Made by a program: the position numbers and the translations under genes. Positions 10,497 through 15,939 of a stretch of DNA of 32,594 bases are shown piece by piece; positions within the stretch are counted from its first letter, which is position 1, and the number at the start of each line of letters is the position of its first letter. Where the stretch lies: positions 1 through 32,594 of the forward strand of contig JACASX010000012.1 in NCBI GenBank assembly GCA_013390745.1. The letters are read 5' to 3'. Origin of the DNA: Marine Group I thaumarchaeote. GTDB taxonomy: Archaea > Thermoproteota > Nitrososphaeria > Nitrososphaerales > Nitrosopumilaceae. Below the pieces are notes generated by a model, which searched no databases, had not been told where the DNA came from, and saw only the letters and a program-made list of their open reading frames with translations.

Positions 10497-11432
10497 GTGG
10501 AAATTGCCATTAATGCATTGCTAACCGTTGTTGGTATTGCGATGTTATGTTTTGGTGGAAACTGGTTAGTAAGTGGCGGTGTATCTATTGCCAAAAAACT
10601 TAGGATTAGTCAAATGGTAATAGGTTTAACAGTTGTAGCATATGGAACATCAACTCCTGAGCTAGCTGCAAGTATAGCAGCTACAGTAGGGGCACATACA
10701 GATCTAATCTTGGGTAACATAGTTGGAAGCAACATCAGTAACGTAGGAATGGTAATTGGGATATCCGCAATCATCTCTCCTTTGGTAGTAAGCAAGGCAA
10801 CTACAAGAAAAGAAGTTCCAATCATGATTGGTGTGATGTTACTCTTGGTTGCAATATCTGTGGATGGAGAAATCTCACAGTACGATGGAATTTTGTTAAT
10901 TGTTGGCTTGATCGCGTTTACAGTTTACACGCTTTCAAGGGCTAAAAAAGAACGGAAGCAGGAAGAGGAAGATCCGACAGCTCAAAAATCATCTGTTCCA
11001 CGAGCAGTAGGATTGATTGCTATTGGCTCGGGCCTCCTATATTTTGGAGGGCTTGTTACAATCGAAAATGTAATATCGATTGCACAAGGCATCGGAATAT
11101 CTGAAACTGTAGCAGGAATAACCATAGTTGCCATAGGGACATCACTTCCAGAACTTATCACGTCAATAGTTGCAATAAAGAAAGGACATACTGACATAGG
11201 AATTGGAACCATCGTTGGAAGCAATATTTATAATATCCTTATGATCATGGGCGTTGCTTCTGTGATAACTGGTATAGCTGTTGTGCCAGGCATCTTCACT
11301 GATTATTTGGTAATGATTGGCTTTGCTATTGTCCTGATTGCATTCTTAAGATCCGGTATAATTCCCAGACCTGCTGGAATTGGATTGGCAATTGCGTATG
11401 CAGCGTATCTTGGTTACACTTTACTACTTTAG
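10497..11432 (+). CDS. Ca2+/Na+ antiporter of the CaCA family (YrbG-like)
   Basis: The 311-residue membrane protein has about ten hydrophobic segments and the two inverted alpha-repeats of the CaCA family. Repeat 1 has AYGTSTPELAASI and LGNIVGSNISNVGMVIGI. Repeat 2 has AIGTSLPELITSIVA and IGTIVGSNIYNILMIMG. The Glu in each (T/S)PEL and the Asn/Ser of GSN form the cation site. Such proteins exchange Ca2+ for Na+ or H+ across the cell membrane. A central loop rich in Lys and Glu (RAKKERKQEEEDPTAQKS) separates the halves. The GTG start is set by the TATA box 26 bases upstream. The gene is alone on its strand; its 3' end faces the stop of the large secreted protein gene. Confidence 0.92.
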   Translation: MEIAINALLTVVGIAMLCFGGNWLVSGGVSIAKKLRISQMVIGLTVVAYGTSTPELAASIAATVGAHTDLILGNIVGSNISNVGMVIGISAIISPLVVSKATTRKEVPIMIGVMLLLVAISVDGEISQYDGILLIVGLIAFTVYTLSRAKKERKQEEEDPTAQKSSVPRAVGLIAIGSGLLYFGGLVTIENVISIAQGIGISETVAGITIVAIGTSLPELITSIVAIKKGHTDIGIGTIVGSNIYNILMIMGVASVITGIAVVPGIFTDYLVMIGFAIVLIAFLRSGIIPRPAGIGLAIAYAAYLGYTLLL

Positions 11433-11441
11433 ATTCTCTTT

Positions 11442-14400
11442 CTAACCAACTTTGATTATCCCAACTTTGACTAGATGCTGAATTCCTGAAACGAAAGTGT
11501 TGTCATCAATCGCTCCATCAGCCCACCAGCTTGCATTATTTTTTATCCATCCTGGAACTTCTTGTGAGGCTGAAGACTCTGACGCTACAGTAGGAGGTAT
11601 AACCATTATTCCTTCTTTGATAAGAAATTGAATTCCTTGCAGGAATGATGAATCATCAATCGCTCCATCAGCCCACCATTCAGCGTTGTTTTTTATCCAT
11701 CCTGGGATGGCAGTTACAGATTTTGCAGTAGGTTGGACTTGTTGCTGTGCGTTTGGATCCAATGAAAATGATTTCATCATGTGGATGATTTCGTCATAAT
11801 GGGCATCAGCAACTTGTTCATATGATTCGACTGGTATCGCCCATGAACCCTTTCCATCATATATTAGACCAAATATTTTAACAATGGGATATTCTTTGCC
11901 TGTTATTTTACCTGATATGTTCTTCCATTCAAGCGTGAAAGTCGTCTTAACAAAGTATACTTTTCTGTTGTCATTAGTGTAAAAAACGTCGGAATCCACC
12001 GTCTTAAAATCAGAACATTTTCTGTCGTCTGCTGCAAATGTATAATCTCTACACTGTTCCCACTGATTTTTTTCTATTGCTCGTAATACCTTTGAATCAG
12101 AACGGTTATCTAGAGTATCATCATCATTCCAAAACACCTGAGCGCTTGTCTTCCAATTATAGTGGTCATGAAATGCTGCTAATGCATCAGAATGTCCTTC
12201 TGCTAAAACCCAATTATCAGGGTATTCAATTGAAAATTTGTTAAAATCTTCATCTGTATATTTTTTGAAGGTAGAATCTGAAGTTACAACAGCTGGTGTT
12301 GGAGTTGGTGTTGGAGTTGATGTTTGCGTTGGGTTCATTGAAAATGATTTGTACATATGTGCGATTTCGTCAGAATGTTCTGGATAAGTACCAACTGATT
12401 CAGACGTAACCTCCCAGCTGCTAGTATTTCCCACAAATATTATAGCTACAGTACTAACAACGTCGTATTTTTTACCGTTTATTATATAACCGTCATAATC
12501 TGATGGATTCTGCCATACAATCGTGTAAGTCATTGATACAAAGTATGCCTTTTTGTTATCATTCGTGTACATAACATAGGAATCTCCTGCCTTAAAGTTA
12601 GAACATTTCCTATCGTCTGCGGCAAACGTATAGTCTCTACACAGTTCAAATTGAGCTGTTTCTATACCTCGGAACAACTTTGAATCATAACGATTGTCAT
12701 GAGGATCATCTTCATTCCAAAACACCTGAACGTCCGTTCTCCAATCGTATTGGTCATCAAAGTATGCTAATGCCTCATTCCATTGTGATAGAATTTTTAT
12801 ATCATCTTCAAAAATCCAATTATCAGGATATTCAATTGAAAATCTTTTCTTATTATCTACGAATGTTTTGAAGGTAGAATCTGAAATGATCTTTGTTTGT
12901 GTTGGTTCAGGTGTTGGCGTAGGCGTTGGTGTAGGCGTTGGTGTAGGCGTTGGTGTAGGTGTTGGTGTAGGAGTTGGTGTAGTTGTGGTTGTTGGTTGTA
13001 ATTTGGGTTTTACAACAACATCAAAGATTACGGTTCCAATATTATGCCCTTTCCATGAGGCAGATACAGTATATTCGCCAATGTTGTTACAGCAAACTTG
13101 TACATAATTTTCAAAGTAGCCAGTACTAGTAGATACAACCTTTTGTTCAGAAGTTTTGCCACTAGGTTCGGTAACTGTCATATGAACCCATGTGGCTGAT
13201 CTTGGATCTACAACAGTTCCAAAAATTTTTATTTTTTCAAATCGTGAATCATCGCCCGCTCGGTAAGGAAGTTCTAATTTAGTTTTTTCAACGGAGATTG
13301 TTCCCCATTGTTTATCAGGTGTAGGAGTTGGTGTAGGGGTTGGTGTGGGTGTTGGAGTAGGAGTTGGTGTAGGGGTTGGAGTAGGGGTTGGAGTAGGGGT
13401 TGGAGTAGGAGATGGTTTTTTTGTGAAAGTTGTCGAATCAGATATAACACCATATGTTGCTCTTACAGTGTATTTTCCACTTTGTTCCATAAGGGTACTA
13501 GCAATATTTACATCCGTTGAAAAATTCCCTGAATTTGATTCTGTTAATGATTTGTAAAAGATAACATTCCCATTGGGAGCAATAATCATTATGTCAACAT
13601 CTAGATTTGAAGATCTGTTATTCACTTTACCATAGATGGTAATTACATCCTCATTTTGATAAGAAGATTTGTCAGTTGCCACATTAACGTGGGCTATTGG
13701 TGGTGGTTCAGGTATAGGTGTTGGAGTTGGTGTAGGTGTTGGAGTTGGTGTAGGTGTTGAAGATGTGGTTTGTAAAAATGGTTTAAGGTTTTCCTTCCAT
13801 GAAGAAACTAATTCTTGATATTCATACTGGCAGGTTTTGGCTCTGAAATCTGGTAGTAAACCAGATGTTACTAAATCACTATTTAACGAAGGATCCTTTC
13901 CGTAAGCATGACATGCCAAGTTAACGAATCGTTGAGGATTTGTCGAATGCACATCTGCAAAGTCACCAATATTACCATTAATGCTAGACACCATGTAGTC
14001 CCATGCTGCATCTCTAATAGCATCATTTCCAGTATTTGCATCTGAAAATTCCAGAAGCACATAGGAAGACATACTGTCTGCAGCATCTTCCCGTGCTGTA
14101 GGTATTGGTATATCATAAATATCGATCACCGCATGACCAAACTCATGATAAAAAATACTGTCAATTACATTTAGGACACGATCGTCTACGGTTGGATTGA
14201 ACTTTGTGCAGTTAGATTCCATTGGTCCACAAAAAACATTTGGCGCATATTCATAGCCATGTAACCGTAACCATTCCATATTCACAAAATGATCTGCGAT
14301 TAATTCATAACAATATACTATGAAACTTCGTTTTTGCTCTGGATCAAAAACCTTTGGATAATAATATGCGTTTGACGTTCCACATTCTGCAACTCCAACA

Positions 14401-14624
14401 ATGACATCGTGAGGTAAACGGAACTCTTCGTTAAGGAACGCAACTTGAGTTTCAAAATATTGTTCACTTTTTATCCAGCTTTCAAATTCAGTATAATTGT
14501 CTGTTGGATTGTATGCCAGGATAAAGTCACCCTGGTCTGGAATAGCGAATGCCTCCGGAATCATCAATGGCATCGATGGCGGGACAAAAAGCATGCTAAC
14601 TAGGAAAATTCCGAAAAATACCAA
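11442..14624 (-). CDS. Large secreted mosaic protein: DUF4344-type metallopeptidase, beta-sandwich domains, two PsbP-like domains, Thr-Pro linkers
   Basis: The 1060-residue product has a hydrophobic leader ending near EAFA (about residue 28). Residues about 30-285 form a DUF4344-like putative metallopeptidase with HEFGH (160-164) and REDAAD (E179), the expected zinc ligands. A Thr-Pro linker (289-305) leads to an Ig-like domain (about 310-400). A second linker (405-436) leads to another beta-sandwich domain (about 440-540), and a third (546-573) to a PsbP-like domain (about 585-765). A short linker (768-778) precedes a second, clearly duplicated PsbP-like domain (about 787-960); both contain CRDYTFAADDRKCS. 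The C-terminus has two copies of a 38-residue repeat beginning [IV]PGWIKNNA (973-1011 and 1023-1060), which I associate with Thaumarchaeal exported proteins. The start is TTG. Upstream in-frame codons encode KVTRKNNF without a standard start codon. It probably acts at the cell surface; peptidase activity is unproven. Confidence 0.8.
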   Translation of the reverse strand: MVFFGIFLVSMLFVPPSMPLMIPEAFAIPDQGDFILAYNPTDNYTEFESWIKSEQYFETQVAFLNEEFRLPHDVIVGVAECGTSNAYYYPKVFDPEQKRSFIVYCYELIADHFVNMEWLRLHGYEYAPNVFCGPMESNCTKFNPTVDDRVLNVIDSIFYHEFGHAVIDIYDIPIPTAREDAADSMSSYVLLEFSDANTGNDAIRDAAWDYMVSSINGNIGDFADVHSTNPQRFVNLACHAYGKDPSLNSDLVTSGLLPDFRAKTCQYEYQELVSSWKENLKPFLQTTSSTPTPTPTPTPTPTPIPEPPPIAHVNVATDKSSYQNEDVITIYGKVNNRSSNLDVDIMIIAPNGNVIFYKSLTESNSGNFSTDVNIASTLMEQSGKYTVRATYGVISDSTTFTKKPSPTPTPTPTPTPTPTPTPTPTPTPTPTPTPTPDKQWGTISVEKTKLELPYRAGDDSRFEKIKIFGTVVDPRSATWVHMTVTEPSGKTSEQKVVSTSTGYFENYVQVCCNNIGEYTVSASWKGHNIGTVIFDVVVKPKLQPTTTTTPTPTPTPTPTPTPTPTPTPTPTPEPTQTKIISDSTFKTFVDNKKRFSIEYPDNWIFEDDIKILSQWNEALAYFDDQYDWRTDVQVFWNEDDPHDNRYDSKLFRGIETAQFELCRDYTFAADDRKCSNFKAGDSYVMYTNDNKKAYFVSMTYTIVWQNPSDYDGYIINGKKYDVVSTVAIIFVGNTSSWEVTSESVGTYPEHSDEIAHMYKSFSMNPTQTSTPTPTPTPAVVTSDSTFKKYTDEDFNKFSIEYPDNWVLAEGHSDALAAFHDHYNWKTSAQVFWNDDDTLDNRSDSKVLRAIEKNQWEQCRDYTFAADDRKCSDFKTVDSDVFYTNDNRKVYFVKTTFTLEWKNISGKITGKEYPIVKIFGLIYDGKGSWAIPVESYEQVADAHYDEIIHMMKSFSLDPNAQQQVQPTAKSVTAIPGWIKNNAEWWADGAIDDSSFLQGIQFLIKEGIMVIPPTVASESSASQEVPGWIKNNASWWADGAIDDNTFVSGIQHLVKVGIIKVG
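12294..12322 (-). repeat. Hexanucleotide repeat coding for a short Thr-Pro linker
   Basis: Repeats of an ACNCCN-type six-base unit on the coding strand give TPTPTPTP between the two PsbP-like domains. This is the shortest of four such linkers in the gene. Confidence 0.75.
12909..12990 (-). repeat. Hexanucleotide repeat coding for a Thr-Pro linker
   Basis: About 80 bases of six- and twelve-base units (plus strand GGTGTAGGCGTT and variants) encode alternating Thr and Pro before the first PsbP-like domain. Several twelve-base units are identical in a row, which suggests recent slippage. Confidence 0.85.
13318..13412 (-). repeat. Hexanucleotide repeat coding for the longest Thr-Pro linker
   Basis: About 95 bases of six-base units, including several GTAGGGGTTGGA units in a row on the plus strand, encode some 32 residues of alternating Thr and Pro between the two beta-sandwich domains. 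Unit loss or gain would keep the frame. Confidence 0.85.
13711..13759 (-). repeat. Hexanucleotide repeat coding for the linker after the peptidase domain
   Basis: Units of GGTGTTGGAGTT type on the plus strand give (Thr-Pro)n followed by IPEPPP, separating the HExxH domain from the first Ig-like domain. Confidence 0.8.
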
Positions 14625-14679
14625 AAAATTATTTTTTCTCGTAACTTTTTACTTTGACTAGCGCACCAATAAGTCTGAT

Positions 14680-15939
14680 CTAGGTCCTTTCGTATCTGAA
14701 TTTTTTAATTTTGATCAGATCAAAGTAAGAGCCAAACTTTGAATCATCTACATTGTCTAAACCCTCGTCGTTTGGTTCATTTTCAAATGTTCTGAGAATT
14801 TTGTATGTGGTGTTTCTTTCTGCGGGAATCCTGCCAACATCTCTGACAAGGCGTCGGATTTGCTTTGGCTTCAACAGTTGGCCATGCTGTGAGCCTGCAG
14901 CAGTTGAGATGCTTTCATTGATCAGTGTTCCTCCAAAGTCGTTTGCGCCACATTTCAGTAGTTGCTGTGACATTTTTTCACCCGTTTTTACCCATGACAT
15001 CTGTATGTTGTCGATGCAGTTGTTCAACATGATTCTGGAAACCGCATGTGTCAGCATTATATCGTCTGAATCAGCACCAGGTTGAATTCCCTTGTGCAAA
15101 CCATGCTTGTACATGGGCGCCTCTGTATGTATGAAATTGAGTGGTACAAATTCGGTAAAGCCTCCAGTCTCCTTCTGTATTTTGCGAATGATCCCAATGT
15201 GATTGGCACGATCTACATAACTTTCCACGTGACCATACATCATAGTTGACGTTGACCTTATCCCAATCTTATGAGCAGTTTTGATAACCTTAATCCAGTC
15301 CTTAACAGAAATCCTACCAGGCGAAATTTTATCACGCATTTTTTGATCTAAAATTTCAGCTGATGTTCCTGGAATCGTACCGACTCCCGCATTTTTTAAT
15401 CTTAAAAGATAATCTCTTATGGTAATGCCGTTTCGTGTTGCTCCATACAAAATCTCTTCAGGTGAAAATCCATGAATGTGCATCTTTGGAATTTCTTTCT
15501 TTATCTCACGACAAATTTTTTCATACAGTTCTCCATCCATGTCAGGTGGGAGACCGGCTTGTATGCAAACTTCCGTCGCACCTAATTCATGTGCCTCCTT
15601 GGCTCTTCTAACTATTTCTTCTATTGGGAGGAGATAACCTTCCTCTTCCCTGAAATCTCTGCTGAATGCACAAAATCCACACTGTTTTATGCAGACATTT
15701 GTGAAATTGATGTTTCTGTTTACAACATATGTTACAATATTTCCTACCCTTCTTTTTCTAAGTTCGTCAGCTACGGAGCAAACAAGTTCAAGTTCAATTC
15801 CTTTTGCGGCAAATAGCATTACAGAATCTTTTATATCGATTTCCTTTTCTGATAATGCGTCGTTTAGTATTCCAGCAATGATTGGATCAGCATGTTTAAG
15901 TTTTGAATCCAAATTTGTAGTTTCCAAAGTCATCTCCAA
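14680..15939 (-). CDS. cofH: FO synthase subunit 2 (CofH), radical SAM
   Basis: CofH (419 residues) joins 5-amino-6-ribitylaminouracil to a tyrosine-derived fragment. Its product is used by CofG to make FO, the deazaflavin core of coenzyme F420. The radical SAM cluster motif is CIKQCGFC, in the usual context NFTNVCIKQCGFCAFSR near residue 85. Other family segments are EVCIQAGLPPDMDGELY, IHGFSPEEI and GTIPGTSAEIL. It overlaps the end of cofG by ten bases. A strong Shine-Dalgarno sequence AGGAGGG, inside the end of cofG, is placed correctly for the TTG at 15939; the ATG at 15933 is the alternative. This indicates translational coupling with cofG. Length is slightly above the usual, mainly from the C-terminal tail. 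Confidence 0.93.
   Translation of the reverse strand: MEMTLETTNLDSKLKHADPIIAGILNDALSEKEIDIKDSVMLFAAKGIELELVCSVADELRKRRVGNIVTYVVNRNINFTNVCIKQCGFCAFSRDFREEEGYLLPIEEIVRRAKEAHELGATEVCIQAGLPPDMDGELYEKICREIKKEIPKMHIHGFSPEEILYGATRNGITIRDYLLRLKNAGVGTIPGTSAEILDQKMRDKISPGRISVKDWIKVIKTAHKIGIRSTSTMMYGHVESYVDRANHIGIIRKIQKETGGFTEFVPLNFIHTEAPMYKHGLHKGIQPGADSDDIMLTHAVSRIMLNNCIDNIQMSWVKTGEKMSQQLLKCGANDFGGTLINESISTAAGSQHGQLLKPKQIRRLVRDVGRIPAERNTTYKILRTFENEPNDEGLDNVDDSKFGSYFDLIKIKKFRYERT

Follow-up and report, generated by a model that had tools for sequence, protein, structure and literature searches.

What would a peptidase-like mosaic protein do outside the cell of an ammonia-oxidizing archaeon, and how would it be held there? 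The question is raised by a 1060-residue open reading frame (11442–14624, minus strand; listed TTG start at 14624–14622) on a 32.6-kb contig that was analyzed over its whole length (the window) and belongs to a 1.08-Mb archaeal genome that is 86% complete. The host is a non-photosynthetic archaeon, as had been supposed, of what we take to be a Nitrosopelagicus-like genus of ammonia-oxidizing archaea (AOA) in the family Nitrosopumilaceae. The family ranks among Earth's most abundant archaea, and to our knowledge the means by which they attach or display proteins outside the cell are largely unknown.

The reading frame is real, and the layout proposed for it in a preliminary description is borne out: a secreted mosaic with a signal-like N-terminus and modular domain content. 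From the N-terminus, it comprises a signal peptide, a DUF4344 domain, and then Ig-like regions, PsbP-like domains, and WIKNNA repeats, a pair of each, with a Thr-Pro linker ahead of each of the Ig-like and PsbP-like modules. Four such linkers had been described and all four tracts are seen (residues 289–303, 13716–13760; 405–436, 13317–13412; 547–572, 12909–12986; 769–777, 12294–12320; all features of the protein lie on the minus strand). NCBIfam matches of the ORF to internalin, SslE and other families were dropped as Thr-Pro low complexity far under the cut-offs, and its PHROG matches also sit on the Thr-Pro tracts. With moderate confidence, the protein is predicted to be a surface-retained extracellular zinc endopeptidase.

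Export would proceed through a cleavable signal peptide, T/M-RKNNFLVFFGIFLVSMLFVPPSMPLMIPEAFA (14544–14642). Sequence comparison suggests that translation probably starts not at the listed TTG but at an in-frame ACG 18 nt upstream (14642–14640), which would supply the charged beginning of the signal peptide. At the DNA level, the 5′ end of the gene resembles the 5′ ends of further exported genes in the genus (82–88% identity for the three longest matches), and copies of this signal-peptide cassette were collected from the window and from L191, L192, L199, L200, and L201. No ATG, GTG, or TTG start common to all copies was found. In five copies, from three genomes, the frame opens no more than a few codons from a stop, and in these same five ACG lies exactly ten codons ahead of the glycine in (F)GIFLV; the sixth copy has ATG there. 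ACG may be a real start codon of the cassette genes, although its conservation alone is weak proof because the copies descend from a recent common ancestor. When more ACG-start cassettes were sought with a short pattern, allowing two mismatches, counts were no higher than in the control; two near-exact extra matches were examined and attributed to chance.

The DUF4344 putative metallopeptidase domain (PF14247; residues 41–279, 13788–14504) is matched with an E value of 2.4e-43 and 148.9 bits against a Pfam cut-off of 29.6, over positions 6–219 of the 220-position model. Its HEFGH motif (residues 160–164, 14133–14147) contains putative zinc ligands and the catalytic base, and is followed after 14 residues by E179-x3-D183 (14076–14090), the putative third zinc ligand and a helper. 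REDAAD occupies residues 178–183, which puts E179 where it had first been placed. An E-x3-D arrangement of this kind recalls thermolysin and the M48 peptidases. H160, E161, H164, E179, D183, and H226 are invariant in an alignment of 26 sequences from archaea, cyanobacteria, proteobacteria, and others; with the profile match, this supports a probable metallopeptidase with H160, H164, and E179, as first proposed. Structure prediction had been suggested as a way to see whether these three residues come together. In an AlphaFold2 model of the domain (pLDDT 85.9, pTM 0.87), they are predicted to lie on adjacent, confident helices, HEFGH within a long helix (120–143 of the model) and E179 at the beginning of the one that follows (152–167), past an eight-residue loop. 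The domain is expected to adopt a zincin fold of the gluzincin type, although a Foldseek search with the model gave no significant hit among solved structures, whether zincins or not; no solved structures related to the domain by sequence were found. A literature search found no DUF4344 protein with tested activity.

DUF4344 is present in 16 of 250 genomes of the family, and in a tree the window domain falls among other Nitrosopumilaceae sequences with moderate support (86/83) and on a long branch. Of 14 Nitrosopumilaceae DUF4344 proteins whose N-terminal side is intact, 12 carry WIKNNA. No WIKNNA was found in Nitrosocaldus-like genomes, and there an apparent N-terminal membrane helix and a coiled coil precede the domain. 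One genome (G031) has tandem DUF4344 genes (L002/L005), the second interrupted by a stop codon. The HExxH motif, which homologs had been expected to keep, is replaced by HQxSH in four distant ones (L019–L022) from a single genus of Nitrosopumilaceae; by eye, both histidines and the downstream E-x3-D are kept. Three of the four have a WIKNNA-like repeat, and L022 lacks its N-terminal part. Their motif suggests that these proteins are probably metal-binding, catalytically dead pseudopeptidases, so that the DUF4344 domain would exist also without catalysis. Such HQxSH DUF4344 proteins with WIKNNA in related genomes, and the fact that non-catalytic modules make up most of the window protein, would fit a protein that serves in adhesion or binding at the surface and whose DUF4344 domain is no longer catalytically relevant. 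This is very unlikely, however, as the window copy, though otherwise divergent in sequence, retains the invariant family residues.

If the window protein is an extracellular peptidase, its C-terminus offers a candidate for how it is retained. What recurs across the whole family is the WIKNNA repeat, a point that had escaped the preliminary description. The two repeats reported at the protein end start at residues 976 (11592–11711) and 1026 (11445–11561, at the extreme C-terminus). A genome-scale search gave them E values of 3e-23 and 5e-21, respectively, which are inflated because both repeats contributed to the profile. Their consensus is IPxWIKNxAxWWAxGxIxDxxFxxGIQxLIxxGII, and they are modeled as two-helix hairpins (pLDDT about 70–77 for repeat 1). 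WIKNNA occurs in all 111 Nitrosopumilaceae genomes searched, across 22 genera and with 3 to 48 copies each (23 in the window's genome), and in none of 16 genomes from other families of the order. It matched no NCBIfam family and Pfam at chance level only; no example was found among solved structures or phage records, and the string WIKNNA did not occur in a literature search. The repeat has apparently not been described before.

By a crude hydrophobicity score rather than a trained predictor, a signal-like hydrophobic N-terminus was seen in 45 of 45 distinct complete WIKNNA ORFs and a later membrane-like segment in none, although 45 overstates the independent cases because many are orthologs. 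The repeat lies near one end in 42 of these carriers (at the extreme C-terminus in 26, near the N-terminus in 16). The window protein likewise has its repeats near one end, a signal-like N-terminus, and no later membrane helix. On the basis of position and distribution, WIKNNA is probably a surface-retention module, and would stand in for a membrane anchor. Found in every family genome examined, on exported proteins with no other visible anchor, it is a concrete candidate for surface attachment.

Between the DUF4344 domain and the repeats lie the Ig-like and PsbP-like modules. Ig-like region 1 (residues about 311–400, 13425–13694) is MG2-like but below the cut-off (PF01835, residues 337–400, 25.7 versus 32.8 bits). 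Ig-like region 2 (residues 437–543, 12996–13316) has a paralog in the same genome, being 50% identical over 111 residues to a 240-residue exported WIKNNA protein (G000 C2, L238). PsbP-like domains 1 (residues 584–762, 12339–12875) and 2 (residues 785–955, 11760–12272) were both recovered, in agreement with the preliminary description, by a hold-out profile of seven relatives from which the two window copies had been left out (i-E 6.4e-12 and 8.8e-14, respectively). The same profile found no match in 1000 shuffled copies of the protein. Direct Pfam scores of the window copies are under the cut-offs (PsbP, 18.4 versus 23.5 bits; PsbP_2, 14.4 versus 27 bits). Of nine aligned PsbP-like domains, including the two from the window, six match PsbP_2 at E ≤ 0.1 and all nine have a cysteine pair in common; two further full-length AOA relatives, found with the family profile, pass the PsbP_2 cut-off. 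Among solved structures, the family profile best matches PnsL1, a PsbP-like NDH subunit, and a PsbP protein. The model of the PsbP-like region (pLDDT about 54) has a strand-helix order compatible with a PsbP fold, but its Foldseek matches are weak and of mixed kind, resembling NTF2 and cystatin; results for the C-terminal model were set aside because model confidence is too low.

The presence of PsbP-like domains in this host is less of a surprise than had been suggested. They occur in 19 of 121 genomes and 11 of 22 genera of the family, as an ordinary module of exported proteins, and therefore say nothing about photosynthesis; a link to it was dropped. Three PsbP-like exported proteins (L209, L214, and L138) also have in common a GGGCLIATAxxGSE... 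stretch near the C-terminus, which may be another surface-sorting or anchoring element.

The same modules are found on other proteases. WIKNNA is joined to clostripain C11 in L191 (E = 9e-41), and together with a PsbP-like domain to subtilase S8 in L141 (E = 9.5e-8). L209 combines a PsbP-like domain with matrixin M10 (E = 8.9e-7) and TPRs, and L009 a PsbP-like domain and two WIKNNA repeats with a HENGH motif weakly like Peptidase_Mx. In the window's own genome, L230 has TPR, WIKNNA, and HELGHSISLGH, matrixin-like in appearance by eye. A search for comparable architectures in other genomes, as had been suggested, found modular counterparts. A G090 protein with MG2-like and PsbP-like domains, two WIKNNA repeats, and a proline-rich linker comes near the C-terminal half of the window protein, and L012 of G150 has PsbP-like, DUF4344, plastocyanin, and HYR domains and two WIKNNA repeats. 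As the modules recur with other catalytic domains, and in G090 and G150, the architecture is a reused kit and not a one-off. We tentatively propose, at somewhat less than even chances, that in WIKNNA the Nitrosopumilaceae have a new surface-retention module that defines the lineage, a socket for swapped proteases and other catalytic or binding domains, and that the window protein is among its largest products, recombined from modules found elsewhere in the same genome and genus.

Several WIKNNA-linked protease families within one genus would also fit an envelope housekeeping protease, one that matures or turns over the cell's own S-layer and surface proteins and does not feed on outside protein. 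Predicted surface retention points the same way, as does the S-layer of N. maritimus, which is made of an Ig-domain protein and for which the mode of anchoring is not settled (PMC11153153). Housekeeping predicts wide conservation, however, and the DUF4344 gene is absent from the other 30 genomes of the genus (present in 1 of 31). It lies in a variable slot (10497–15939; L183–L189) bordered upstream by cofH (FO synthase subunit, 14680–15939, minus strand) and on the other side by a cation/calcium-exchanger-like gene (10497–11432, plus strand), both identified by reading. The slot is empty in G025, G017, G028, and G029 and filled with unrelated genes in G004, G024, and G008. A housekeeping role is accordingly unlikely.

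The flanking genes, read as cofH/cofG, a tRNA synthetase, a phosphoribosyl ligase, and others, keep the same order in related genomes. Mis-binning was dropped as an explanation, given this gene order and the copies of Ig-like region 2 and WIKNNA elsewhere in the genome. A viral origin was likewise dropped, as relatives of the DUF4344 and PsbP-like domains were not found in viral contigs. Elsewhere in the window, two ORFs (35–640 and 1225–2046) are charged and have in common a repeated peptide of the type YExxxLTRYRKQEKAKPK.

A slot that is empty in some close relatives and holds unrelated genes in others might instead carry a weapon or defense factor against other microbes or viruses, and DUF4344 is among the effector domains of bacteria-killing type IV secretion systems (PMC6536674). 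We regard this as quite improbable here: no immunity-like or defense gene was recognized by reading beside the DUF4344 gene, no relatives were found in the viral collection, and the Thr-Pro linkers and WIKNNA repeats suit retention on the producer.

The surface-retained endopeptidase remains the favored reading. After export, the DUF4344 domain would hold zinc by H160 and H164, with E179 as a probable third ligand, and would use E161 as the catalytic base to cleave proteins outside the membrane. Probably glycosylated, the Thr-Pro linkers would keep the enzyme at a distance from the cell. The PsbP-like and Ig-like domains would serve for spacing or binding, while the WIKNNA hairpins at the C-terminus would keep the protein on the envelope in lieu of a membrane anchor. 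The protein may act on the S-layer or on polymers outside the cell, as first suggested. WIKNNA is paired with four or more protease families, and a streamlined Nitrosopelagicus-like lineage is among those where this occurs; the pairing bears on whether these autotrophs use outside protein, which one study reported of sponge-associated, not free-living, relatives.

Exported proteases have been reported in sponge-associated, not free-living, AOA; they are S8 subtilases and an M72 metalloprotease, and one of them bears adhesive HYR domains (PMC6790972). The window protein would likewise be an exported AOA protease, but of the DUF4344 type and from a Nitrosopelagicus-like genome. Exported peptidases have been proposed to serve mixotrophy in deep-sea MG-I archaea; DUF4344 is not among the families named in the part of that report consulted (S08A, M28A, M14A, M22, M01, and S26; PMC4660358). 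The window domain resembles DUF4344 (PF14247) in its full-length profile match far above the cut-off, its HExxH, and its downstream E-x3-D. The archaeal relatives found are mostly about 330–460 residues long with one or no extra module, whereas the window domain heads a mosaic of 1060. As for PsbP and PsbP_2 (PF01789, PF18933), AOA relatives of the window domains match PsbP_2; unlike those families, the window copies form an extracellular module of a non-photosynthetic archaeon, have a conserved cysteine pair, and fall under the Pfam cut-offs. L012, from Nitrosopumilaceae outside the genus, is similar in being exported and in having a PsbP-like domain, DUF4344, and two C-terminal WIKNNA repeats, but differs in module order, in the added plastocyanin and HYR domains, in its single PsbP-like domain, and in lacking long Thr-Pro linkers. 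Finally, the AOA S-layer protein of the NmSLP type is an array of about ten Ig-like domains (PMC11153153); in contrast, the window protein has two Ig-like regions only, together with a peptidase domain.
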